Below, in pieces: positions 6,078 through 51,554 of a stretch of 64,000 nucleotides of DNA. Under the pieces are notes generated by a model, which was not told the DNA's origin, ran no database searches, and saw only the letters and a list, made by a program, of their open reading frames with translations. Origin of the DNA: Acidobacteriota bacterium (lineage in GTDB: Bacteria; Acidobacteriota; Holophagae; Holophagales; Holophagaceae); assembly GCA_016192145.1 (NCBI GenBank), contig JACPUT010000006.1, forward strand, positions 496,001 to 560,000. Direction: 5' to 3'. The translations under genes were made by a program, and so were the position numbers. Each line of letters opens with the position of its first letter. Positions within the stretch are counted from its first letter, which is position 1.

Positions 6078-7937
6078 ATGGCAGGCAAGCTCATCGGGAT
6101 CGATCTAGGGACCACCAATTCCTGCGTATGCGTGATGGAAGGTGGGGATGCCCGGATCATTCCCAACCGGGAAGGCAGCCGCACCACCCCCTCCGTCGTC
6201 GCCTTCACGGACAAGGGCGACGTGCTCGTGGGCCACATCGCCAAGCGCCAGGCGGTGACCAACCCTACCCGCACCCTCTTCGCCGTGAAGCGCCTCATCG
6301 GCCAGCGCTTCGCCGCGCCCCGCGTGCAGGAAGCCCTGAACCGGCTGCCCTTCCCCGTGGTGAGCGCCCCCAACGGCGACGCCTGGCTGCGGGTCGGCGA
6401 GCGCGACTACGCGCCTCCCGAAGTGAGCGCCATCGTGCTGCGCACCCTCAAGCAGGCGGCCGAGGCCTTCCTGCACGAGGAAGTCACCGACGCCGTGATC
6501 ACGGTGCCCGCCTACTTCGATGACGCCCAGCGCCAGGCCACCAAGGATGCCGGCAAGATCGCGGGCCTCAACATCCAGCGCATCATCAACGAGCCCACGG
6601 CGGCGGCCCTCGCCTACGGCTTCAACAAGGGCGGGATGCGCCAGCTGCTGGGCATCTACGACTTCGGCGGCGGCACCTTCGACTTCACGCTCATGGAAAT
6701 GAACGACGGCGTGTTCGAAGTGCTCGCCACCAGCGGTGACACCTTCCTGGGCGGCGAGGATTTCGACCTCACCATCCAGGACTACCTGGTGAAGCACTTC
6801 AAGGAGAAGGTCGGCGTGGATCCCAGCGGGGATCGCATGGCCCTCCAGCGCTTGAAGGAGGCCAGCGAAAAGGCCAAGTGCGAGCTCTCCACCCTGGACA
6901 AGGTGGACATCCGCCTCCCCTTCCTCGCCCAGGGCCCCAGCGGCCCCCTCCATCTCGAAGCCACCCTCACCCGAGGGGAGCTCGAGGAGATGGTGCGCGG
7001 CCTCGTGGAGCGCACCCTCGGCCCCATCCGGGATTCCCTGGAGCACGCGGGCAAGAAGCCCAGCGACATCGACGAGATCATCCTCGTGGGCGGCCAGACC
7101 CGCATGCCCCTCGTGCAGCAGCGGGTGAAGGACTTCTTCGGCAAGGAACCCAACCGCTCCATCAATCCCGACGAGGTGGTGGCCACGGGCGCCTCCATCC
7201 AGGGCGCCGTGCTGAAGGGCGATATCAAGGACCTCGTGCTCCTCGACGTCACGCCCCTCTCCATCGGCATCGAGACCCAGGGTGGCGGCTTCGTGAAGAT
7301 CATCCCTCGAAACGCCACCATCCCCTGCCGGGACAGCCGCACCTTCACCACGGTCACGGACAACCAGGCCCGGGTGGAGATCCACGTCCTCCAGGGCGAG
7401 CGCGAGCTGGCGGAGTTCAACAAGAGCCTGGGCCGCTTCGACCTCGTGAACCTGCCGCCCCTGCCCAAGGGCGTGCCCCAGATCGAAGTCGCCTTCGAGA
7501 TCGACTCCAACGGCATCGTGCGCGTGTCCGCCAAGGACCTCATGACGGGCCAGGAGCAGGGCATGCAGATCCGCCCGACCTCCGGCCTCTCCGAGCTGGA
7601 GATCCAGCGCATGATCCGCGAGGCCTTGGCCAACGCGGACCAGGACAAGTCGAAGCGCGACTCCCTCAAGTACCTCGCCAGCGCCGAGGGGCTCATCTAC
7701 TCCTGCGACAAGAGCTTCACCGAATGCGGCAAGTACCTCACGGAGGAGCAGCAGACCTTCGTCCGCGACGTCCTCGGCCGGGCCCGCCAGGCCGTGGCCG
7801 CCCAGGACAGTGAGGTGGTGCGGGGCATCGAGGGCCAGCTCCTGGAAGCCCAGAACCTCCTCACGGACGCCGTGCTCGCCGCCAGCGAAGCCATGATGGC
7901 CAGCCTGGAAGGCAAGGACGACGAGAACGCCAACTGA
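6078..7937 (+). CDS. dnaK: Chaperone DnaK (Hsp70)
   Basis: A 619-residue ATP-driven chaperone of the cytoplasm. The nucleotide-binding domain opens with [14 protein letters not shown], has the phosphate 2 loop [10 protein letters not shown] near residue 195 and the adenosine motif [13 protein letters not shown] near residue 335. The linker [18 protein letters not shown] is clear, followed by the substrate-binding beta domain and a helical lid ending in an acidic tail. ATG 6078 was chosen over the ATG 21 nt upstream because GGAG at about 6067-6070 precedes it and the family starts with M-(A/S)-K. Residues C15 and C17 in the first loop match many Gram-negative DnaKs. It is transcribed with grpE upstream and dnaJ downstream. 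Confidence 0.97.
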
Positions 7938-37553: not shown

Positions 37554-37907
37554 ATGCAAGGGTATGCCCCGATTCTGCTTCTGGTTCTCGTGGCCATCGC
37601 CATGCCGGTGATCGTGTGGACGCTTTCGCGCCTGGTTCGCCCCAACGTGCCGAACGCCAACAAGTACATGGTCTACGAGTGCGGCATCACCCCCACCACC
37701 GATGCCCGCGAGAAGTTTTCCGTCCGCTACTACCTCATCGCCGTGATGTTCCTCGTCTTCGACGTGGAAACCGTCTTCCTCTACCCCTGGGCGGTGCAGT
37801 TCAAGGAGCTGGCGCTCTTCGGCCTGGTCGAGATGGGTATCTTCCTTTTCCTTCTGCTCTTCGGATACGGCTACATCTGGTCCAAGGGCGCCCTCACCTG
37901 GGAGTAG
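37554..37907 (+). CDS. nuoA: Complex I subunit NuoA
   Basis: A 117-residue membrane subunit of the proton-pumping quinone reductase. Three transmembrane helices are seen. The conserved loop [24 protein letters not shown] and the following [16 protein letters not shown] are hallmarks of NuoA/ND3. GGAGG precedes the ATG. It is the first gene of a same-strand run nuoA-B-C-D-H-I-J-K-L-M-N with gaps of usually under 20 nt. Confidence 0.95.
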
Positions 37908-37911
37908 TGCG

Positions 37912-38424
37912 ATGAGCGTCATGAACCAACCCAACGCCCTGGAGCACATCCTCATCACCACCAAGGTGGAGAAGGTCGTGAACTGGGCCCGCGCCTCGTC
38001 GGTGTGGCCCATGACCTTCGGCCTGGCCTGCTGCGCCATCGAGATGATGGCCGCCGGCGCCTCCAAGTTCGACTTCGACCGCTTCGGCGCTGGCATCTTC
38101 CGCGCCACGCCCCGCCAGAGCGATCTGATGATCGTGGCCGGCACCGTCACCTACAAGATGGCGCCCGTGATCAAGAAGCTCTACGACCAGATGCCCGAGC
38201 CCAAGTGGGTCATCGCCATGGGCAGCTGCGCCACCGCCGGCGGCCCCTTCGACAGCTATCACACCATCCAGGGCGTGGACAAAGTCGTCCCCGTCGATGT
38301 CTACATCCCCGGCTGCCCGCCCCGGCCCGAGTCGCTGATCTACGGCTTCCTCAAGCTGCAGGACAAGATCATGACCAGCTCCATGGCGGACAAGTACGGG
38401 GAGATCTTTGAGGCGGTGGGCTAA
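37912..38424 (+). CDS. nuoB: Complex I subunit NuoB
   Basis: A 170-residue peripheral-arm subunit holding cluster N2, the last iron-sulfur centre before quinone. The cysteines are seen in [10 protein letters not shown] (adjacent pair), GSCATAGG and [10 protein letters not shown], the complete N2 ligand set. [20 protein letters not shown] is also conserved. It starts 4 nt after nuoA and ends 2 nt before nuoC. Confidence 0.96.
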
Positions 38425-38426
38425 CC

Positions 38427-39938
38427 ATGGCGATCACCAAGGTCTGGATCGAAGAAGGTTGCATCGTCTGCAACGCCTGCGAGGCCGAGTGCCCGGACGT
38501 CTTCCACGTCACCGAGGACAGCTGCCACATCAGGGGTGAGGCCCGCGTCGATGGCGTGGAGAACGAGAACAAGGGCAAGTCCCCCCTCAAGGACGAGCTG
38601 CAGCGCAAGCTGGAGGACGCCATCGTGGCTGCCGCCGCCGGCTGCCCCGTGAGCGTCATCGTCTACGAGCAGGTGGCCAACGCCGCCGAAGCCGCGCCTG
38701 CTGCTCCCGCCCCCGTGGCAGAAGCTCCCAAGGCCCCCGAGCCCGTGGTCGCCGCTCCCGTCGTGGAAGCGCCCAAGGCCGAGGCTCCCAAGGCCGTGGC
38801 CGTGGACGCCCCCCGCATCACCAAGGTGTGGATCGAGGACGGCTGCATCGTCTGCAACGCCTGTGAGGCCGAGTGCCCCGATATCTTCCACGTCACCGCG
38901 GATAGCTGCCACATCAAGGCGGATTCCCGCGTGGATGGCAAGGAGGACGAGAACCGCGCCGCCAAGGCCCTGCTGAAGGGCGATCTGGGCCTGGAGCAGT
39001 TCAGCAAGATCGTGGCTGCCGCCGCGGGCTGCCCCGTGAACGTCATCAAGTACGACGGCACCGCCGCCGCCGTGTCCGCCGCCCCGGCGCCCGCCGCGGA
39101 AGTGCCCGCCGGCCCCACCTCCTGGGATATCCGCACCGCCCCCAACCGGCAGGTGACGGCTCCCAAGACGGCCCCCGTGCCCAGCTTCAAGACCTACCAG
39201 CTCGAAGTCGCCGAACAGTTCAAGGCGGACGAGGCCAAGTGGCAGAAGACCCAGGCCGACTACGAAGTCGCGAAGCAGAAGGCCGCGGCCGAGGGCAAGG
39301 ATGCCCCCAAGCCCCCCGTCCGCCCCGCGCCCAAGAAGGACGAGAACGATATGAAGACGCCCTTCCCCCAGGAGGCGAAGGATGCGGATCTGCTCCTCCT
39401 CGCCGAGCGCCTGGGCGACAAGGTGGAGGAAGTGTTCGAGCAGGCCGGCGAGCTCGTCTGCCAGGTGAAGAAGGAAGCGGTGATCGAGGTCCTGCGCCTC
39501 TGCCAGGACGATCCGCACCTCAAGTACGAGATGCTCACGGACGAGACGGCCACCCACTACCCCGTGGGCAAGGACTTCCAGTTCAGCGTGGTCTACCACC
39601 TGACGAGCCTCAGCCGCCGCAAGCGCCTGCGCATCCGCATCCTGATCCCCGAGGGCTTCGAGCCCGAGAGCGCCTGCGCCCTCTACCCCTCGGCCAACTG
39701 GATGGAGCGCGAGATCTTCGACATGCTCGGGATCCGTTTCCAGGACCACCCCGGCCTCACGCGCATCCTCTGCCCTGAGGGCTGGGAGGGCTACCCCTTG
39801 CGCAAGGAGTACCCCACCCTCGGCTGGGGCCAGCGCGACATCGACTTCCGCGAGGACCGCTCCGGCATGCTGAACCGCATCGCCATGGAGAAGGCCGGCA
39901 ACCTCGGGATCAACCTTTCCATCCCCAAGGCTGACTGA
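38427..39938 (+). CDS. nuoC: Tandem ferredoxin-NuoC fusion subunit of complex I
   Basis: A 503-residue protein in the nuoC position. Residues about 1-85 and 130-215 are two nearly identical ferredoxin domains. Each has a CIVCNACEAECPD cluster motif (Cys 12, 15, 18, 22 and Cys 140, 143, 146, 150) and a distal GCPV cysteine (about 73 and 200), the pattern of single [4Fe-4S] ferredoxins. Ala/Pro-rich linkers follow each. The C-terminal about 200 residues are the 30-kDa NuoC domain: ATHYPVGKDFQFSVVYHLTS, NWMEREIFDMLGIRFQDHP and LRKEYP. Ordinary NuoC is about 200 residues and has no ferredoxin. Since nuoEFG are absent from the operon, these domains may receive electrons for the complex. That role is an inference. 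Confidence 0.9.
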   Translation: MAITKVWIEEGCIVCNACEAECPDVFHVTEDSCHIRGEARVDGVENENKGKSPLKDELQRKLEDAIVAAAAGCPVSVIVYEQVANAAEAAPAAPAPVAEAPKAPEPVVAAPVVEAPKAEAPKAVAVDAPRITKVWIEDGCIVCNACEAECPDIFHVTADSCHIKADSRVDGKEDENRAAKALLKGDLGLEQFSKIVAAAAGCPVNVIKYDGTAAAVSAAPAPAAEVPAGPTSWDIRTAPNRQVTAPKTAPVPSFKTYQLEVAEQFKADEAKWQKTQADYEVAKQKAAAEGKDAPKPPVRPAPKKDENDMKTPFPQEAKDADLLLLAERLGDKVEEVFEQAGELVCQVKKEAVIEVLRLCQDDPHLKYEMLTDETATHYPVGKDFQFSVVYHLTSLSRRKRLRIRILIPEGFEPESACALYPSANWMEREIFDMLGIRFQDHPGLTRILCPEGWEGYPLRKEYPTLGWGQRDIDFREDRSGMLNRIAMEKAGNLGINLSIPKAD

Positions 39939-40207
39939 GGGTCTGTATGGAAATGAATCTGACAATTGCGAGGGGTGCCGGCCAAGCCAGGCTAGGAGGC
40001 CGACCGGCGGCGTGCTGGTTGCACGCGGAGGGAGGGCGACGACGCATGGCGACAGCCGCCACCCCTCGCCCTTCGGGTTGGTGGCTCTCCGCGCCCCCAG
40101 CTGTGTCAGCCGCCTTGTACGTAGAACCACTGCGCCCTACGGCGCCTTCCTTGCTGGGGTGCGCGGATAGCCGCCAACAATTGTCAGATTCATTTCCATA
40201 CAGACCC
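39939..40207. repeat. 269-bp element with perfect 30-bp terminal inverted repeats (MITE-like)
   Basis: The ends 39939-39968 (GGGTCTGTATGG start) and 40178-40207 are exact reverse complements over 30 nt. Inside lie two further hairpin arms: GCGAGGGGTG (39968-39977) with CACCCCTCGC (40060-40069), and a 24-25 nt imperfect pair (40078-40101 with 40153-40177). A small stem GCGTGC/GCACGC lies near 40010-40026. The whole can fold as an outer stem with two branches. It has no credible coding frame and no clear target-site duplication. It begins at the base after the nuoC stop and ends 13 bp before the nuoD start, leaving the nuoD ribosome binding site intact. Confidence 0.85.
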
Positions 40208-40220
40208 TGCGGAGTCCCCG

Positions 40221-41321
40221 GTGTTTAAAAACGAGGAAATGGAAATCAACCTGGGGCCGCAGCATCCGTCCACCCACGGCGTGCTCCGCGTGAAGCTCAG
40301 GCTCGATGGCGAGACGGTCACCCACTGCGAGCCCATCATCGGGTACCTGCACCGGGGCGTGGAGAAGATCTGCGAAGACAAGACCTTCTTCCAGGGCCAG
40401 GTGTGGACCGACCGCATGGATTACGTGGCGGCCATCAGCAACAACCTGGGCTGGGCCGAGAGCATCGAGAAGCTCTTCGGCATCGAGGTGCCCCGCCGCG
40501 CCCGCTACATCCGCACCATGCTCACGGAGCTGAACCGCATCAGCAGCCACCTCCTGTGGCTGGGCACCCACGCGCTGGACATCGGCGCCATGACGGTCTT
40601 CCTCTACGCCTTCCGCGAACGTGAACAGATCCTCGATCTCTTCGAGGCCTTCTGCGGCGCCCGCCTCACCACCACCGCCTTCCGCATCGGCGGCCTGCGC
40701 GAGGATCTGCCTCCCGGCTTCCTCAAGCAGGCCCAGGCCTTCCAGGATCGTTTCCTGGCCTGCGTGGACGAGTACGAGACGCTCCTCACGGAGAACCGCA
40801 TCTGGAAAAAGCGCACCGTCGGCGTGGCCCCCATCTCCGCCGAGGATTGCATCGCCTACGGCGTGACGGGCCCCGTGCTCCGCGCCGCCGGCGTGGCCTT
40901 CGACATCCGCAAGGCCTTCCCCTACGCGGCCTACGACGAGATGGAATTCGACGTGCCCACCGCCACCGCGGCCGACACCTACGCCCGGTACCAGGTGCGC
41001 GTGGAGGAGATGCGCCAGAGCCACCGCATCGTGCAGCAGTGCATCGACAAGCTCCCCGAAGGCCCCGTGATGGCCAAGCTTCCCAAGGTCCTGAAGTCCG
41101 AGGTGGGCGAGGTCTACCACGCCATCGAGGCCCCCAAGGGCGAGTTGGGCTACTACCTCGTGGGGGAGAAGGGCTCGGGCAATCCGTACCGCTTCCACGT
41201 CCGGGCACCGTCGTTCGTGAACCTGCAGGCCCTGCCCAAGATGACCGAGGGCAAGCTCCTCGCGGACGTGATCGCCGCCATCGGCACGCTCGATGTCGTA
41301 CTCGGCGAAGTTGATCGCTAA
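40221..41321 (+). CDS. nuoD: Complex I subunit NuoD
   Basis: A 366-residue 49-kDa-type subunit forming the quinone site with Nuo[21 protein letters not shown] near the N-terminus contains the quinone-binding His. [21 protein letters not shown] and the C-terminal [10 protein letters not shown], with the conserved Asp-Arg end, are all present. GTG 40221 is the likely start, with GCGGAG 6 nt upstream. It is separated from nuoC by the inverted-repeat element, so continuous transcription must pass through that structure. Confidence 0.95.
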
Positions 41322-41330
41322 GGATCGAAC

Positions 41331-42497
41331 ATGCCAATGACCCTGACCCAAACCGTCGTAATGGCCCTGATCCAGATCGTGGTCCTCCTGGCCGTGATCA
41401 TGGCCGTCGTGCCCATCATCACCTTCGCCGAGCGCAAGGTGATCGGCTATGTCCAGGTGCGCCTGGGTGCCACCCGCATCGCCGGCGGCCATGTGGGCAT
41501 CACGGGCCCCATCAACCGGGCCATGTGGGCCCTGGGCAGGGTGCCCGTGTTCTCCATCCTCCGCGGCCTTCCCATCTTCATGGCCGACGGCCTGAAGCTG
41601 CTGACCAAGGAGGACGTGATCCCGGAGAAGGCCGACAAGCTCGTCTTCATCCTGGCGCCCGCCATCTGCATGGTGCCCGCCTTCGCGGTGTTCGCCGCCA
41701 TCACCTTCTTCCCCGGCGCTGAAGGCCTCTTCACCTTCCCCGCGTCCTTCCCCATCGTGGGTGGCCTGAAGTTCATGGGCTTCCTCACGGACATCAACGT
41801 GGGCCTGCTCTACATCCTCGGCGTGGCCTCCGTGGGTGTGTACGGGATCGTGTTGGGTGGGTGGGCTTCCAACTCCAAGTACCCCCTCCTGGGCGGCCTC
41901 CGCAGCGCGGCCCAGATCGTGAGCTACGAAGTGCCCCTCAGCATGAGCCTCCTGGTGCCCGTGCTCCTCGTGGGCAGCCTCTCCTTCCGGGAGCTCAGCG
42001 TGAAGCTGGCCACCGAGATGCCCCTGGTGGCCGCCGTGCCCCTCTTCCTGGGTTTCTTCTTCTACCTCACCTGCGGCTTCGCGGAGACCAACCGCGTGCC
42101 CTTCGACCTGGCGGAAGCGGAAACCGAGTTGGTGAGCGGCTTCCACACCGAGTACACGGGCATGAAGATGGGATTCTTCTTCCTGGCCGAGTACGCCAAC
42201 ATGATCGTGGTTAGCGCCATCGCCGCCGCGTTCTTCCTGGGCGGGCACTACCTCCTGCCCTTCGGCCTCCAGAGCCAGCTGATCCACGCCCTGGGGGCGG
42301 GCCACGCCCTCAACCAGCCGAGCATCCTCTTCTTCGTCGGCAAGGTGGGTTTCCTGCTCTTCGTGTTCCTGTGGATCCGCGCCACGCTTCCCCGCTACCG
42401 GTACGACCAGCTCATGCACGTGGGCTGGAAGTTCCTGATCCCCGTGACCCTGGTGAACCTGTTCATCGCGGCCGCGATCAAGTTCGTGTGGATGTGA
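41331..42497 (+). CDS. nuoH: Complex I subunit NuoH
   Basis: A 388-residue membrane subunit at the junction of the arms. It shows FAERKVIGYVQVRLGATR, the acidic quinone-channel loop TCGFAETNRVPFDLAEAETELVSGFHTEYTG written across residues about 245-275, and a C-terminal LPRYRYDQLMHVGWKFLIP. About eight to nine transmembrane helices. It starts 9 nt after nuoD. Confidence 0.95.
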   Translation: MPMTLTQTVVMALIQIVVLLAVIMAVVPIITFAERKVIGYVQVRLGATRIAGGHVGITGPINRAMWALGRVPVFSILRGLPIFMADGLKLLTKEDVIPEKADKLVFILAPAICMVPAFAVFAAITFFPGAEGLFTFPASFPIVGGLKFMGFLTDINVGLLYILGVASVGVYGIVLGGWASNSKYPLLGGLRSAAQIVSYEVPLSMSLLVPVLLVGSLSFRELSVKLATEMPLVAAVPLFLGFFFYLTCGFAETNRVPFDLAEAETELVSGFHTEYTGMKMGFFFLAEYANMIVVSAIAAAFFLGGHYLLPFGLQSQLIHALGAGHALNQPSILFFVGKVGFLLFVFLWIRATLPRYRYDQLMHVGWKFLIPVTLVNLFIAAAIKFVWM

Positions 42498-42504
42498 GGT
42501 CGCG

Positions 42505-42999
42505 ATGAACTGGCTCAAGGCATTCAACCCATCTGACATCGCCGGGGGCATGAAGCTCACCGGCAAGCGGTTCAGGCAGGTGCTCTTCACCGCCAATCGC
42601 CGCAAGGTGCCCATGCACTTCGTGGCGGAATACCCGGAAGTGAAGGTCAAGCTGGCCCCCCGGTACCGCGGTCGGCTGACGATGATCAAGGACGAGCAGG
42701 GCGAGATCAAGTGCGTCTGCTGCCTCGCCTGCGAGAAGATCTGCCCCACGCAGGTCATCACGATCATCAAGGGCAAGAAGGAGGGGCGCAAGATGCCCTT
42801 CCCCACGCGCTACGACTTCGAGATGGAACGCTGCATCTTCTGCGAGTTCTGCGTGGAGAGCTGCGGTTTCGACTCCATCATCCTGAACCACCAGTTCGAG
42901 CTGGCCACCTACAACCGGGAGGACTTCAGTCTCGGCATGGAGGGCTCGGAAAACATGTTCGAGAACTCCGCCGTCGGCAAGTTCTCCGTGGCGGAGTGA
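42505..42999 (+). CDS. nuoI: Complex I subunit NuoI
   Basis: A 164-residue subunit with clusters N6a and N6b. Two ferredoxin motifs are seen, CVCCLACEKICPTQVI and CIFCEFCVESCGFDSI. The second has Gly where the usual CP proline stands, a minor deviation. PRYRGRLTMIKDEQGEIKC is the conserved lead-in. With NuoEFG missing here, this would be the first standard iron-sulfur carrier after the ferredoxin domains fused to NuoC. Confidence 0.95.
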   Translation: MNWLKAFNPSDIAGGMKLTGKRFRQVLFTANRRKVPMHFVAEYPEVKVKLAPRYRGRLTMIKDEQGEIKCVCCLACEKICPTQVITIIKGKKEGRKMPFPTRYDFEMERCIFCEFCVESCGFDSIILNHQFELATYNREDFSLGMEGSENMFENSAVGKFSVAE

Positions 43000-43004
43000 G
43001 GAAC

Positions 43005-43550
43005 ATGGAAAACCTGCTCATCTCCCTCGCCCAGAACCTGTTCCCCATCTTCGGCCTCCTGGCCGTGGGCGGCGCCGCCCTCATGGTGGCCTCCCGCCAG
43101 GCGGTGCACAGCGTCCTCGGGTTCCTCTTCGCCATGCTCTGCGTGGCGGGCTGCTTCCTGACGTTGGAAGCCGAGTTCCTGGGCATCGCCCAGCTGCTCG
43201 TCTACGCCGGCGGCATCGTGGTGCTCTTCCTCTTCGTGGTGATGCTCGTGGAGCTCACCAAGTACAAGGAGAAGGACATCTTCCAGAAACAGACGAAGGT
43301 GGCCCTCCTGGCCGTGGCCGGGGGCCTCCTCGTGGTGGGTGGCGCCCTGCGCAACGCCCTCTTCGGCCCCGCCGCCAAGGAGGCCCTCACCCTCCGCCCC
43401 GAGATCACCAACGGGGCCGTGCTGGGCAACGCCCAGGCCGTTAGCCGCGGGCTCTTCGCAGACTTCCTGCTGCCCTTCGAGATCCTCAGCATCATCCTGC
43501 TCGTCGCCCTCGTGGGCGCGGTGGTATTGGCTAAGACGGAGCGTGTATGA
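43005..43550 (+). CDS. nuoJ: Complex I subunit NuoJ
   Basis: A 181-residue membrane subunit with five transmembrane helices. AVHSVLGFLFAMLCVAGCFLTL and AQLLVYAGGIVVLFLFVVML contain the glycine kink conserved in the third helix of NuoJ/ND6. The stop codon overlaps ATG 43547 of a small downstream frame (ATGA). The protein ends ...LAKTERV; that ending reappears in the small frame. Confidence 0.93.
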   Translation: MENLLISLAQNLFPIFGLLAVGGAALMVASRQAVHSVLGFLFAMLCVAGCFLTLEAEFLGIAQLLVYAGGIVVLFLFVVMLVELTKYKEKDIFQKQTKVALLAVAGGLLVVGGALRNALFGPAAKEALTLRPEITNGAVLGNAQAVSRGLFADFLLPFEILSIILLVALVGAVVLAKTERV

Positions 43551-43654
43551 GCCGTTTCGCCTGCATCTTCGGAATGATCCCGATGGCTGAGAACCAGCGA
43601 TTTGATGTCTCGCGTATCCGCTTCGCGGATACCGAGAAAACGGAGCGTGTGTGA
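43547..43654 (+). CDS. 35-residue ORF coupled between nuoJ and nuoK (hypothetical)
   Basis: The frame runs from an ATG that overlaps the nuoJ stop (ATGA) to a TGA that overlaps the nuoK ATG (TGATG). Both junctions are typical of translational coupling. The product, beginning MSRFACIFGMIPMAENQRF, is soluble and basic, and ends KTERV exactly as NuoJ does, so part of it may be a duplicated nuoJ end that preserved the nuoK ribosome binding site. An 8-bp hairpin (GTATCCGC at 43614-43621 with 43625-43632) lies within it. No homolog is known to me. It may be a real small subunit or a coupling device. Confidence 0.4.
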   Translation: MSRFACIFGMIPMAENQRFDVSRIRFADTEKTERV

Positions 43655-43956
43655 TGCCGAGCCCCAACGCCGTCCTCATCATCAGCTTCCTGCTCTTTTC
43701 CACGGGCGTGGCCGGGATCCTCATCCGCCGCAACGCCCTGGTGATCCTCATGTGCGCGGAGCTCATGCTCAACGCCGCGAACCTCAACTTCATCGCCTTC
43801 GCCCGGCATTCGGGCTCCGTGGGTGGTCAGGCCTTCGCCCTCATGGTGATGGGCTTCGCCGCCGCGGAAGTGGCGGTGGGCCTGGCCATCGTCGTGGCCC
43901 TGTACCGGCGCAAGGCCACGGTGCAGGTGGACGACATCAACCTGCTGAAGGGCTGA
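43654..43956 (+). CDS. nuoK: Complex I subunit NuoK
   Basis: A 100-residue antiporter-like subunit (MrpC/ND4L type) with three transmembrane helices. The conserved membrane glutamates lie in VILMCAELMLNAANLNFIAF and FAAAEVAVGLAIVVALYRR. ATG 43654 overlaps the stop of the small ORF before it; GTG 43651 is the alternative. It is followed by nuoL 7 nt later. Confidence 0.94.
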   Translation: MPSPNAVLIISFLLFSTGVAGILIRRNALVILMCAELMLNAANLNFIAFARHSGSVGGQAFALMVMGFAAAEVAVGLAIVVALYRRKATVQVDDINLLKG

Positions 43957-43963
43957 GGCAGAC

Positions 43964-46297
43964 ATGGAACACGCGATGACCGCAGCTTCGACGCACTCCA
44001 GCCTCCTCTGGCTGATCCCCTTCCTGCCCCTCTTCGGGTTCCTGGTGAACGGCCTCACGGGGCGCCGCCTGCGCAACCACAAGGTGGTGAACGCCATCGC
44101 CCTGGGTACCGTGGGCACCAGCTTCCTGCTGGCCGTCTACCACTTCATTCAGCTCCTGGGCATGCCCGAAGCTGGCCGCAGCCTCCACCAGCTCCTCTGG
44201 ACCTGGTTCGATCTGGGCGGCGCCCGGGTGAACGGCGGCCTCACCACGGCCACCATCAACTGGGCCTACAAATTCGACGTGCTCAGTGGCGCCATGACCC
44301 TGCTGGTGACGGGCGCGGGCTTCCTCATCCACCTGTTCAGCACCGGCTACATGGCCGACGAGCAGAAGGATTTCCGCTACTACCGCTTCATGGCCTACCT
44401 GAACCTCTTCGTGTTCAGCATGCTGAATCTGGTCCTGGGCGCGAACATCATGATGATGTTCCTGGGCTGGGAGGGCGTGGGCCTCTGCTCCTACCTCCTC
44501 ATCGGCTTTTACTTCGATAAGGAATACGCGGGCGACGCGGCCAAGAAGGCCTTCGTCACCAACCGCGTGGGCGACTTCGGCTTCATGATCGGCTTCTTCT
44601 TGCTGTTCATGGTCTTCGGCAGTCTGGACTACGACACGCTCATGGGCTCCGCCCGGGAGATCTCGAACCTCAAGGCGATCACCCTCTTCGGCCACACGGC
44701 GGCCCCCTCCTTCTGGTTCAACATCATCGGCTGCTGCCTCTTCGTAGGCGCCGCTGGCAAGTCGGCCCAGATCCCCCTCTACGTCTGGCTCCCGGACGCC
44801 ATGGCCGGCCCCACGCCGGTATCCGCCCTGATCCACGCGGCGACCATGGTGACGTCGGGCCTCTACATGATCACCCGCCTGAACTTCGTCTATGTCCAGG
44901 CCCCGATCGCGCTGGGCCTCGTCCTCGTCGTAGGCAGCCTCACGGCCCTCTTCGCGGCGACCATGGGCCTCGCCCAGTACGACATCAAGAAGGTGCTGGC
45001 CTACTCCACCGTCTCCCAGCTGGGCTTCATGTTCATGGGCCTCGGCGCCGGGGCGTTCACGGCCGGTATGTTCCACGTCTTCACCCACGCCGCCTTCAAG
45101 GCCTGCCTCTTCCTCGGTTCCGGCGCCGTCATCGCGGCCTGCCACCACGAGCAGGACATGCGGAACATGGGCGGCCTGCGGAAGTACATGCCCTGGACCT
45201 TCCTGAGCATGGGCCTCGCCACGCTCGCCATCAACGGCATCTTCCCCTTCAGCGGCTTCTTTTCGAAGGACGAGATCCTCTGGAAGGTGTTCGAGCAGTG
45301 GTACAACCACGGCCACTTCGATGGCCCGGTGCTCTACCTGATCTGCTGGATCATGGGCCTGCTCGGCGCCTTCTGCACGGCGTTCTACATGACCCGCCTC
45401 ATGATCATGACCTTCTACGGGAACTACCGCGGGGCGGGGGATGATCCCCATGGCCTCACGGTGCAATCCGAGGCCCACCATGGGCACGACGACCACGGCC
45501 ATGGCGACCATGGGCACGGCGATGCCGCCCACGCCCATGGCCACGCCCACGAGGATCACGCCCACGAGCTGGACAAGTCCCACGACCACACGGGGGACGA
45601 TCCCGAGGATCACGACCTCGTGCCCGGCCACGTGCCCCATGAGGTGCCCTGGAACATGTGGGTGCCCGTCTTCATCTTCGCCTGCTTCGCCGTGGTGCTC
45701 GGGTTCCTGAACCTGCCCCACAGCCTGGAGACCCTGGGCAAGGTGTTCGGCAACGACCACTTCAGCCAGTGGCTGGAGCCCATCCTCTACCAGGTGCAGG
45801 CGCCCCACGGCGGCCACCACGCCGCCCCCGCCATCGAGTACGGCCTGATGTTCTTCGCCACCCTCGTGTGGGCCCCCGGCGCCATGCTGCTGGCCATCTG
45901 GATGTACGGCATGGATCCCAGCTGGTCCAAGGCCAAGGCCTTCGTGAAGCGCTTCCCCCAGGTCTTCGAGTGGGTGAACGCCAAGTACTACGTGGACGAG
46001 TTCTACGACGCCCTCGTCATCGAGCCCATCAAGCGCCTCAGCGCCCAGTTCTGGAGCTTCGATACCTGGGTGCTGGACGGCATCATCAACGGCGCCGCCC
46101 GCTTCTCCCTCATCTGGGCGGAGGCCAGCTTCTGGTTCGACGCCAAGATCGTGGATGGCAGCGTCAACCTCGTCGCCTGGCTCACCCAGCAGGGCTCCAA
46201 CGGGTTCAAGACCCTGCAGAGCGGCCGCGTCCAAAACTATGCCTTCGTGATGTTCCTTGGTTTCCTGGCCCTCGCGGTCTGGAAGCTGATGGCTTGA
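43964..46297 (+). CDS. nuoL: Complex I subunit NuoL with a His-rich insertion
   Basis: A 777-residue proton-pumping subunit, longer than the usual 610-650. Antiporter features are present: GWEGVGLCSYLLIGFYF, the pump-site lysine region KSAQIPLYVWLPDAMAGPTPVSALIHAATMV (about 265-295) and YDIKKVLAYSTVSQLGFMF. Between about residues 500 and 545 there is a loop with more than fifteen His mixed with Asp and Gly (HGHDDHGHG and similar), predicted to be outside the membrane. The long amphipathic C-terminal helix and terminal transmembrane segment follow. The insertion is probably metal-binding or structural; its role is unknown. Confidence 0.94.
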   Translation: MEHAMTAASTHSSLLWLIPFLPLFGFLVNGLTGRRLRNHKVVNAIALGTVGTSFLLAVYHFIQLLGMPEAGRSLHQLLWTWFDLGGARVNGGLTTATINWAYKFDVLSGAMTLLVTGAGFLIHLFSTGYMADEQKDFRYYRFMAYLNLFVFSMLNLVLGANIMMMFLGWEGVGLCSYLLIGFYFDKEYAGDAAKKAFVTNRVGDFGFMIGFFLLFMVFGSLDYDTLMGSAREISNLKAITLFGHTAAPSFWFNIIGCCLFVGAAGKSAQIPLYVWLPDAMAGPTPVSALIHAATMVTSGLYMITRLNFVYVQAPIALGLVLVVGSLTALFAATMGLAQYDIKKVLAYSTVSQLGFMFMGLGAGAFTAGMFHVFTHAAFKACLFLGSGAVIAACHHEQDMRNMGGLRKYMPWTFLSMGLATLAINGIFPFSGFFSKDEILWKVFEQWYNHGHFDGPVLYLICWIMGLLGAFCTAFYMTRLMIMTFYGNYRGAGDDPHGLTVQSEAHHGHDDHGHGDHGHGDAAHAHGHAHEDHAHELDKSHDHTGDDPEDHDLVPGHVPHEVPWNMWVPVFIFACFAVVLGFLNLPHSLETLGKVFGNDHFSQWLEPILYQVQAPHGGHHAAPAIEYGLMFFATLVWAPGAMLLAIWMYGMDPSWSKAKAFVKRFPQVFEWVNAKYYVDEFYDALVIEPIKRLSAQFWSFDTWVLDGIINGAARFSLIWAEASFWFDAKIVDGSVNLVAWLTQQGSNGFKTLQSGRVQNYAFVMFLGFLALAVWKLMA

Positions 46298-46315: not shown

Positions 46316-47982
<1,667 letters not shown>

Positions 47983-47983
<1 letters not shown>

Positions 47984-49482
47984 TGAACGGCTTCGCCTCC
48001 GGGCTGATGGAGGCGCTCCTCCGGGACAGCGCCTTCATCCTCCCCCAACTCTTCCTGGCGGGCCTGGGCACCCTCATGCTCTGGCCGGGGGATCTCCTCT
48101 TCCACAAGGGCGAGAAGCACAAGTGGGCCCCCGTCACGGGCGCGATCCTGATCGTGGTCCTTGCGTTGGTCTTCCGCACCCCTGAGGGCACCGGCTTCTC
48201 CGGCATGTACAGGGTAGATGGGCTCACCAAGGGCTTCCAGATCCTCAGCATCCTCGGCGCCCTGGGTGCCGTGGCCCTCTCCCAGCGCCTCCTGAACGCG
48301 CTGAAGGAGCAGACGGTCGAGTACTACGCCCTGATCCTCTTCAGCCTCAGCGGCATGCTCTTCCTCTGCGGCGCGGTGGATTTCGTCAGCTTCTACTTCA
48401 GCCTCGAGCTGATGGCCATCTGCATCTACATCCTCGTGGCCTACCTGCGGAAGCAGGAGCGGGGCGTGGAAGCCGGCCTGAAGTACTTCCTCCTGGGGGC
48501 CTTCAGCAGCGGCCTCCTACTCTACGGCATCAGCCTCCTCTTCGCCGCCACGGGCGGGAAGACCACCAACTTCGCCGAGATGGGCCAGCTCCTGCCCGTC
48601 GTCAGCCAGTCCAACACCCTCCTCGTGGGCGCGGGCGTGCTGATGGTGCTGGTGGGCCTGGGCTTCAAGGTGGCGGCGGTGCCCTTCCACATGTGGAGCC
48701 CCGATGCCTACGAGGGCGCCCCCACGCCCATCACCGCCTTCATGGCGACGGCCCCCAAGGCCGCCAGCCTCGCGGCCTTCATCCGCGTCTTCCAGACGGC
48801 CTTGCCCGGCGTCGCCGATCAGTGGATGCTGCCCCTGGGCTACGTGGCCGCGGCCAGCATGATCCTGGGCAACGTCGCCGCCATCAAGCAGCAGAGCATG
48901 AAGCGCCTCCTGGCCTACAGCTCCATCGCGCACGTGGGCTACATGCTCCTGGGCGTGATGTGCGGCCCCGAGGGCGCGCAGGCCACCTGGCTCTACATGG
49001 CCACCTACCTGGTGATGAACTTCGGCGCCTTCGCCATCGTCATCCACCTCCAGGGCACGGGCGAGGGCGAGCGCATCGAGGACTTCCGCGGCCTCAAGGA
49101 TCGGCACCCCTTCCTGGCCTTCGCCATGATGGTGTTCCTCCTGAGCCTGGCGGGCATTCCGCCCCTGGTGGGCTTCTTCGGTAAGTTCTACCTCTTCCAG
49201 ATGGCCGTCACCCAAGGGCACATCACCCTGGTGACCATCGCCTTCCTGACGTCGGTGGTGAGCGCCTTCTACTACCTGGGCGTGGTCAACCAAATGTACT
49301 TCAAGGACGCCCCCGCCTTGGCCGAAGGCGCCGAGCCCGAAGCCACGGGCATGGCCACCACCGTGATCGTGACCGTGGCCTGCGTCCTCGTCCTGCTCGG
49401 TACCGGTTTCGCCAAGCCCCTCCTCGAGTGGGCCGGCGGCATCGGCTCCGAGAAGAAGGCATCACAGGTCGCCCTAAGGTAG
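47983..49482 (+). CDS. nuoN: Complex I subunit NuoN
   Basis: A 499-residue pump subunit. DFVSFYFSLELMAICIYILVAY contains the conserved Glu, GFKVAAVPFHMWSPDAYEGAPTPITAF the lysine site, and MKRLLAYSSIAHVGYML the second proton-path region. About fourteen transmembrane helices. No His-rich tail, unlike NuoL and NuoM. It is the last nuo gene; no nuoE, nuoF or nuoG follows. A heptamer palindrome lies directly downstream. Confidence 0.95.
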
Positions 49483-50250: not shown

Positions 50251-51051
50251 ATGGAACATCACGCTTCATTCTTCGCCCAGTGGCTGACCAGCCTCCTGCA
50301 CCTGCACCAGCAGGTGTGGCCCGGCTTCGGGTCGCACCCCATGAGCGTGCTGGAGCGCTATGACCACCTCCTGAACACGGTGCTCGCGGCCCTGTTCGTC
50401 CTCGGTCTCACCTCGGCCACCCGCGCCAAGCTCAGCCTCATCCCCGGCGGCCTGCAGCAGGTGATGGAGGCCTACTTCGGCTTCATCCGCAACCTGGCCG
50501 GTTCCTCCATCCCCCGCCACTCCGAGAAGTACATCCCCTTCATCGGCACGCTGGGCCTGCTCATCTTCGTGAACAACTTCCTGGGCATGATCCCCTTCTT
50601 CGGAACGGGCAACAGCAACTGGAACGTCACCCTGGGCTGCGCGATCCTCGTGTTCCTCGTGTACAACTTCGAGGGCACCCGCGTGAACGGCCTGAGCTAC
50701 TGGAAGCACCTGGCCGGCCCCTGCAGCAACCCCTTCCTGGTGCTTTTGGGCATCGTCCTGATCTTCCCGCTGGAGTTCCTGGGCCTGTTCATCCGCATCT
50801 TCAGCCACTCGATGCGTCTCTTCCTCAACATGGCCCTGGAGCACACCATCGCCGCCGCCATCTTCGGCGTGGTGGCCCTGGCCGTGCCCACGGTGCTCAT
50901 GTTCCTGGGCTTCATCACGGTGGCCGTGCAGGCCCTCGTGTTCATCACCCTGACCGCCGTCTACATCGGTGGCGCGGTGCAGGACATGCACCACGACGAC
51001 CATGGCCATGATCACGACCATGGTCACGGCAAGTCGGCCCACGCGCACTGA
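50251..51051 (+). CDS. atpB: ATP synthase Fo subunit a
   Basis: A 266-residue membrane subunit carrying the proton half-channels. The essential Arg is in FSHSMRLFLNMALEH (about residue 190), within the S-x-R-L-F-x-N-M motif. NNFLGMIPFFGTGNSNWNVTL is the conserved helix-four region. The C-terminus ends with a His/Asp-rich tail (MHHDDHGHDHDHGHG) unlike most homologs and like the His-rich parts of NuoL and NuoM. It lies with atpZ and the atpI-like gene upstream and atpE downstream; the F1 genes and atpF are not in this window. Confidence 0.93.
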   Translation: MEHHASFFAQWLTSLLHLHQQVWPGFGSHPMSVLERYDHLLNTVLAALFVLGLTSATRAKLSLIPGGLQQVMEAYFGFIRNLAGSSIPRHSEKYIPFIGTLGLLIFVNNFLGMIPFFGTGNSNWNVTLGCAILVFLVYNFEGTRVNGLSYWKHLAGPCSNPFLVLLGIVLIFPLEFLGLFIRIFSHSMRLFLNMALEHTIAAAIFGVVALAVPTVLMFLGFITVAVQALVFITLTAVYIGGAVQDMHHDDHGHDHDHGHGKSAHAH

Positions 51052-51184
51052 GTCCTTCGACTTTGGTCCTTGGTCCTTAGCTGAGCCCGACCCACAACTT
51101 TTTCTGCACCACCTTCCTAAGGCCTTGTCATCTCGAACCCCTTGGCATTCTGGCCAAGGACAAAAGACCAGGGACTAAGGACTC
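51050..51184. repeat. Heptamer-arm palindrome, AAGGACY family, between atpB and atpE
   Basis: The left arm (51050-51080) and right arm (51154-51184) share AGTCCTT/AAGGACT heptamers with several mismatches. CGACCCA lies at 51088-51094. The outer core side, AGCT next to GGTCCTT units, is the mirror image of the element before prfA, indicating common origin. No matching TGGGTCG is visible on the right, so this copy is degenerate. Confidence 0.65.
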
Positions 51185-51245
51185 AACCAGTTCACCCTTG
51201 GCCGACGGGATTCCGAACCCCGCGGTCCCAACTCTGGAGGCGCAC

Positions 51246-51554
51246 ATGCGCAAGTTCTTCACCTTCGCCGTTCTCTTCACCGTGGCCGTGGCCGCCTTCG
51301 CCCAGGGCGCCCCCGCCGCTTCCACCGGCTCCTTCAACAGCCTGTTCGACACCACCCGCCTGGTCTACATCGCCGTCGCCGGCGCCGCGGCCGCTTGCGG
51401 TACCGCCCAGGCCAAGGTCCTCTCCTCCGCCTACGAGGCGATGGCCCGCAACCCCCAGGCCGCCGACAAGATCTCCGGCTCCCTGGTGCTGGGTCTGGCC
51501 TTCATCGAGGCCCTGGTGCTCTTCACCTTCGCCCTCGCCTTCATCGTCAAGTAA
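51246..51554 (+). CDS. atpE: ATP synthase Fo subunit c
   Basis: A 102-residue proteolipid. The first about 22 residues (MRKFFTFAVLFTVAVAAFAQ) look like a signal or extra helix, giving a longer protein than the usual 70-80. Helix one has AGAAAACGTAQAKVL in place of the Gly-rich GxGxGxG pattern, and EAMARNP is the polar loop. Helix two has LAFIEALVLFTFALAF with the ion-binding Glu. A Gln nine residues before the loop Glu is at the position used for sodium coordination, but the Ser or Thr that normally follows the helix-two Glu is absent (it is Ala). I therefore favour proton coupling. GGAGG precedes the ATG. Confidence 0.93.
   Translation: MRKFFTFAVLFTVAVAAFAQGAPAASTGSFNSLFDTTRLVYIAVAGAAAACGTAQAKVLSSAYEAMARNPQAADKISGSLVLGLAFIEALVLFTFALAFIVK

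Follow-up and report, generated by a model that had tools for sequence, protein, structure and literature searches.

Ferredoxin domains fused to NuoC in an 11-gene complex I operon of Holophagaceae: a candidate tethered electron donor

Which donor feeds a complex I whose operon encodes no NADH module, and what do two ferredoxin domains do at the N terminus of its NuoC? Both questions are raised by one locus of an Acidobacteriota bacterium from the family Holophagaceae, located in a window of 64,000 nucleotides (the whole stretch of DNA that was analysed). What feeds the bacterial 11-subunit complex I is still regarded as an open question, and no single conserved donor emerged from a search for one (PMC11238625 and the work cited there). 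In this study, we analyzed the architecture of the fusion gene and its operon, the distribution and selection of the fused domains in the family, and the cellular context in which a ferredoxin-fed complex may operate.

The fusion gene and its operon

The nuoC gene of this locus is a single open reading frame of 503 codons, the ATG of which lies 2 bp downstream of the nuoB stop codon. The genes of the operon and the parts of the fusion protein are listed below in window coordinates.

37554..37907, + strand: nuoA, matched by NCBIfam NuoA models
37912..38424, + strand: nuoB, keeping the four N2 ligand cysteines C40, C41, C106 and C135
38427..39938, + strand: nuoC fusion gene, 503 aa, in the order ferredoxin domain 1, linker, ferredoxin domain 2, linker, NuoC extension, NuoC core
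38433..38672, + strand: ferredoxin domain 1 (residues 3-82), from Pfam Fer4_13/15, alignment and AlphaFold (pLDDT 95.8)
38673..38816, + strand: Ala/Pro-rich linker 1 (residues 83-130), 60% Ala+Pro, pLDDT about 32-40, predicted disordered
38817..39062, + strand: ferredoxin domain 2 (residues 131-212), by its likeness to ferredoxin domain 1
39063..39446, + strand: linker 2 and NuoC N-terminal extension (residues 213-340), with a predicted helix at 254-289
39462..39818, + strand: NuoC core, Complex1_30kDa (residues 346-464), from Pfam and from Foldseek matches to complex I subunit C chains
40221..41321, + strand: nuoD, without CxxC and hence without a [NiFe] hydrogenase site
41331..42497, + strand: nuoH, profile match
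42505..42999, + strand: nuoI, with two CxxCxxCxxxC motifs (N6a, N6b)
43005..43550, + strand: nuoJ, between nuoI and nuoK and homologous in relatives
43651..43956, + strand: nuoK, profile match
43964..46297, + strand: nuoL, profile match
46316..47983, + strand: nuoM, profile match
47983..49482, + strand: nuoN, profile match

Domain searches support both halves of the fusion. Pfam places Complex1_30kDa at residues 346-464 (3.7e-37), and Fer4_13 and Fer4_15 cover residues 9-78 with scores above gathering (37.2 vs 24.5 and 35.1 vs 22.4 bits, respectively). The protein passes the NuoC family TIGR01961 (NCBIfam NuoC_fam) with 123.6 bits at a cut-off of 122.45, and at 30.7 bits falls below the equivalog cut-off of 93 for the 2-oxoglutarate oxidoreductase delta subunit OorD (PRK09626). 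The best 50 Foldseek matches of the full-length model were all complex I subunit C chains; in this model, the confidence of the ferredoxin domains is modest (pLDDT about 50-75). Third-position G+C ranges from 0.91 to 0.96 in both ferredoxins, the extension and the NuoC core, which is the usual coding pattern here, and is 0.79 in the Ala/Pro-rich linker. The original prediction of a single frame with two ferredoxin domains, an Ala/Pro-rich linker and a complete NuoC was borne out by the open reading frame and by the Pfam and NCBIfam matches. Its description of the two ferredoxins as near-identical holds for the motif stretch, which is almost the same, but not for the whole domains, where 54 of 80 residues are identical.

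Profile matches and position define eleven genes in the order nuoABCDHIJKLMN. The genes nuoE, nuoF and nuoG are absent from the operon, in agreement with the gene content first read from the sequence; the operon lacks the dedicated NuoE, NuoF and NuoG of the canonical 14-subunit NADH complex I. NdhS, NdhO, NdhV or related accessory subunits were also not found among the operon genes. The N2 cysteines in NuoB, the motifs in NuoI and the CxxC-less NuoD denote a quinone reductase of the complex I type, not a hydrogenase. ATP synthase Fo genes (atpB-like and atpE-like by sequence) are located directly 3' of the operon, at window positions 50269-51554.

A dispersed repeat of 271 nt with a perfect 31-bp terminal inverted repeat lies between nuoC and nuoD (window 39938-40208). 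About 10 copies, some of them partial, are present in the genome, and no match was found in Rfam. The arms differ between copies and are complementary within each; across six copies, compensatory change on both sides is seen at 59 of the 96 predicted pairs, although this covariation may partly reflect mixed orientation or arm conversion because the repeat is nearly palindromic. It looks like an insertion, since the gap between nuoC and nuoD is shorter in relatives (15-30 bp in several). Weak relatives of the repeat occur in other Holophagaceae genomes (L060 9425-9613, L040 6176-6372).

Origin, distribution and maintenance of the fused ferredoxins

Each fused ferredoxin domain possesses a CxxCxxC motif and a distal CP. 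The cysteines of domain 1 are C12, C15, C18, C22, C33 and the distal C73, among which C12, C15, C18 and C33 are invariant in all aligned fused and stand-alone copies. The distal CP is kept in every aligned ferredoxin except one truncated row. Cys22 is variable, and missing in one second-domain lineage, which would fit a cysteine outside the set of ligands. Note that C33 (window 38523-38525) is a fifth cysteine, invariant in the aligned fused and free members, at a position not usual for a ligand.

The single ferredoxin domain was modelled by AlphaFold with a pLDDT of 95.8, and the model compares with solved single-cluster ferredoxins at a TM-score of about 0.5-0.8 (best Foldseek E-value 1.1e-3). 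The single sequence gave no match against the PDB with phmmer; the matches of a profile search of the domain against the PDB are thermophilic ferredoxins. Single-[4Fe-4S] ferredoxins of Bacillus thermoproteolyticus, Thermotoga and Pyrococcus (1iqz, 1vjw, 2z8q) share the fold class and the motif, but they are free proteins, shorter than the fused domains (59-81 residues in the solved chains), and fewer residues separate their motif from the distal CP.

A stand-alone ferredoxin paralogue was found at one locus, thiL-Fd-yqeY-proS, in all 22 family loci checked, including those of fusion carriers, and all but three of these 22 also have a cheX-like gene there. Because the stand-alone ferredoxin keeps this conserved locus even in carriers, the fused domains would seem to be additional copies, and their sequences look like derivatives of the family stand-alone ferredoxin. 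In the ferredoxin trees, Planctomycetota stand-alone relatives form their own group, but the deeper branches are not separated; with 77 alignment columns, the ferredoxin-domain tree has too few to serve as arbiter between one and two fusion events.

The fusion is present in 14 of 77 Holophagaceae (Acidobacteriota) genomes, distributed in four genera and with one or two ferredoxins. Nine genomes (this one, G001-G003 and G055-G059) have two ferredoxins on NuoC and five (G054, G065, G066, G068 and G070) have one, and the two-ferredoxin state occurs in three of the four carrier genera. NuoC without ferredoxin was found in Geothrix and the other Holophagaceae genera read, and the N-terminal extension of NuoC is present in the operons read family-wide, whether with none, one or two ferredoxins. 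The operon was read in all 11 family genera of the genome collection, with no nuoE, nuoF or nuoG within it; that of genus g10 could be followed only to nuoH, at its contig end, and several further contigs are truncated as well. Beyond Holophagaceae, the search consisted of one pattern scan of the genome collection with 8-residue peptides and a class-level search, so further fusions, distant or convergent, may exist.

A frameshift or an assembly join of two genes, the artefact that the original prediction had to allow for, was ruled out by orthologues in 13 other genomes from independent assemblies, three of which are single-contig (G065, G066 and G070). The fusions of G055 and G068 were read across contig ends. 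In the fusion of G057 (genus g6), an internal in-frame TAG is located in the NuoC core (L009 near position 7491), which would be either an assembly error or the sign of a decayed copy.

Between species, the fused ferredoxin domains display dN values of 0.01-0.13, with dS from 0.19 to saturated. Their dN roughly equals the value for the NuoC core in genera g2 and g9 and exceeds it in g6, and linker 1 reaches a dN of 0.26-0.47. These substitution rates indicate that purifying selection acts on the fused domains with a strength equal or close to that seen for NuoC, and that the ferredoxin domains are maintained while the linkers vary more freely. A tree of NuoB-D-H-I-J requires at least two changes of fusion state, compatible with two gains or with one gain and losses. 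The patchy distribution might suggest a near-neutral gene fusion beside nuoC without functional consequence. However, the purifying selection on the ferredoxin domains, their retention in four genera with the two-copy state in three, and the two or more changes of state on the tree make this explanation hardly credible.

The ferredoxin domains could also be structural, assembly or redox-sensing additions, which carry clusters but stand off the electron path. This would conform to their dispensability in most relatives, to a ferredoxin copy number ranging from 0 to 2 and to the loss of Cys22 in one second-domain lineage. However, single-cluster ferredoxins have no ligand at the position of Cys22, the residues that bind the cluster do not vary, and purifying selection on the ferredoxins is close to that on the core whereas the linkers drift. 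We thus consider such a role quite unlikely.

A second complex I and the sources of reduced ferredoxin

The genome (3.8 Mb, 98% complete) encodes a second complex I, with nuoABCD, nuoE and nuoF at C7:75-83 kb, nuoHIJKLMN at C7:251-259 kb, and a short NuoG (501 aa) at C1:22.5 kb. The E, F and G domains were confirmed by domain search. This canonical NADH complex I is spread over three distant places (L114 978-8775, L121 6086-13632 and L122 7485-8990), and flagellin-like and YceI-like frames (by sequence) lie between its nuoD and nuoE. Two NuoC and two NuoH copies were found in the genome, and single copies of nuoE, nuoF and nuoG. A nuoEFG set dedicated to the fusion operon would have told against the original prediction; the set is present elsewhere, has its own ABCD and HIJKLMN, and is not dedicated to that operon. 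NuoF-domain genes are found in 76 of the 77 family genomes. The fusion was also considered as a mark of lost cellular NADH oxidation, and this was rejected given the complete NADH-type complex I in three pieces.

As nuoE, nuoF and nuoG each have one copy, the fusion complex might borrow these subunits from elsewhere, with the fused ferredoxins as side branches. Yet a second ABCD and HIJKLMN set is available to them, its ABCD is co-located with EF, and the EFG-less operon recurs across the family genera. Such borrowing is therefore very improbable.

Among the family genomes searched, no RnfC was detected above the cut-off in fusion carriers or in Geothrix, and strong RnfC matches are confined to genera g7 and g8. 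Genes for 2-oxoacid:ferredoxin oxidoreductases (OFORs) were found in 76 of 77 genomes. Three OFORs are encoded in this genome, of which one is a NifJ-type PFOR and one is of the KorA type; among the 1.2-Mb g2 genomes, the two larger ones have the KorA-type OFOR only. With Rnf not detected and OFORs present, reduced ferredoxin needs an oxidase. Complex I chemistry is reversible, and the same anatomy would serve a reverse flow, in which proton-motive force and quinol reduce the tethered ferredoxins for biosynthetic reductions. Carriers, in which no RnfC is detectable, might benefit from an additional way to reduce ferredoxin. However, genes for OFORs, which produce reduced ferredoxin, are already there, so the reverse route is unneeded in most of these genomes and appears unlikely.

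The putative tethered donor and known systems

In the cyanobacterial NDH-1, which is without EFG, electrons from ferredoxin enter at N6a of NdhI (PMC7021789). This precedent, together with a cellular ferredoxin that needs an oxidase, suggests that the fused ferredoxins act as a tethered donor. The operon thus probably encodes an 11-subunit proton-pumping ferredoxin:quinone oxidoreductase with a [4Fe-4S] ferredoxin donor tethered to NuoC. The tethered electron entry proposed in the original prediction survives as the best reading, in view of the fused and separate states, the purifying selection, the undetected Rnf and the OFORs.

A single-[4Fe-4S] ferredoxin would have been copied onto the N terminus of NuoC, giving one copy in some lineages and two in the present one, and flexible Ala/Pro-rich linkers would allow the ferredoxin domains to swing. 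Low-potential electrons from the OFORs would reach the fused domains directly or via the homologous soluble ferredoxin, and would then pass from the fused ferredoxin to N6a in NuoI, to N6b, to N2 and to quinone. We infer the assembly of the clusters, the passage of electrons through them, its direction and the docking site. About 40 low-confidence residues separate the end of ferredoxin domain 2 from the predicted helix 254-289 in the model. By estimate rather than by model, a tether of about 40 residues is in principle enough to span the Q module, and it is therefore unlikely that the clusters are unable to approach NuoI.

The fusion is dispensable for the enzyme, as most of the family (Geothrix) lacks it, and the fused copies need not be the sole donor since the soluble ferredoxin is retained. 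A swinging two-cluster arm that passes electrons directly from OFOR to N6a, joined to the same end of NuoC in two separate events, is put forward tentatively; if true, the donor of this 11-subunit complex I would be part of the enzyme.

The gene order nuoABCDHIJKLMN without the N module is shared with Desulfitobacterium hafniense (ACL21757-67), whose complex is also a predicted quinone reductase, but there soluble ferredoxins are mere donor candidates and no fused ferredoxin is described (PMC11238625). The cyanobacterial and chloroplast NDH-1 (Fd-NDH-1L) is likewise an EFG-less, ferredoxin-fed complex I (PMC7021789), as we infer for the complex here. In Fd-NDH-1L a soluble [2Fe-2S] ferredoxin is docked with the help of NdhV/NdhO, whereas in the present case the ferredoxins are of the [4Fe-4S] type and form one polypeptide with NuoC, the NdhJ homologue. 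The flavodoxin-fed Nuo of epsilonproteobacteria (Campylobacter) is also without a functional NADH module (PMC12361115, PMC11238625). In the Sulfurospirillum-type Nuo, genes are kept in the nuoE, nuoF and nuoG positions (PMC11238625), whereas the fusion operon has none of these genes and its carrier is fused. Fusions of the NuoCD and NuoBCD type were reported in an HMM survey of complex I (PMC12361115); these also involve NuoC, but join core subunit to core subunit with no electron carrier, and the passages on them do not speak of a ferredoxin fusion. No published description of a ferredoxin-NuoC fusion was found in the open-access literature.

The fusion in 14 genomes against separation in relatives, together with the soluble ferredoxin pinned to a conserved locus, provides a directly testable donor for the Holophagaceae complex. 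With ferredoxin and NuoC in one protein, the fusion also lends itself to measurements of how electrons enter a complex I without the NADH module.
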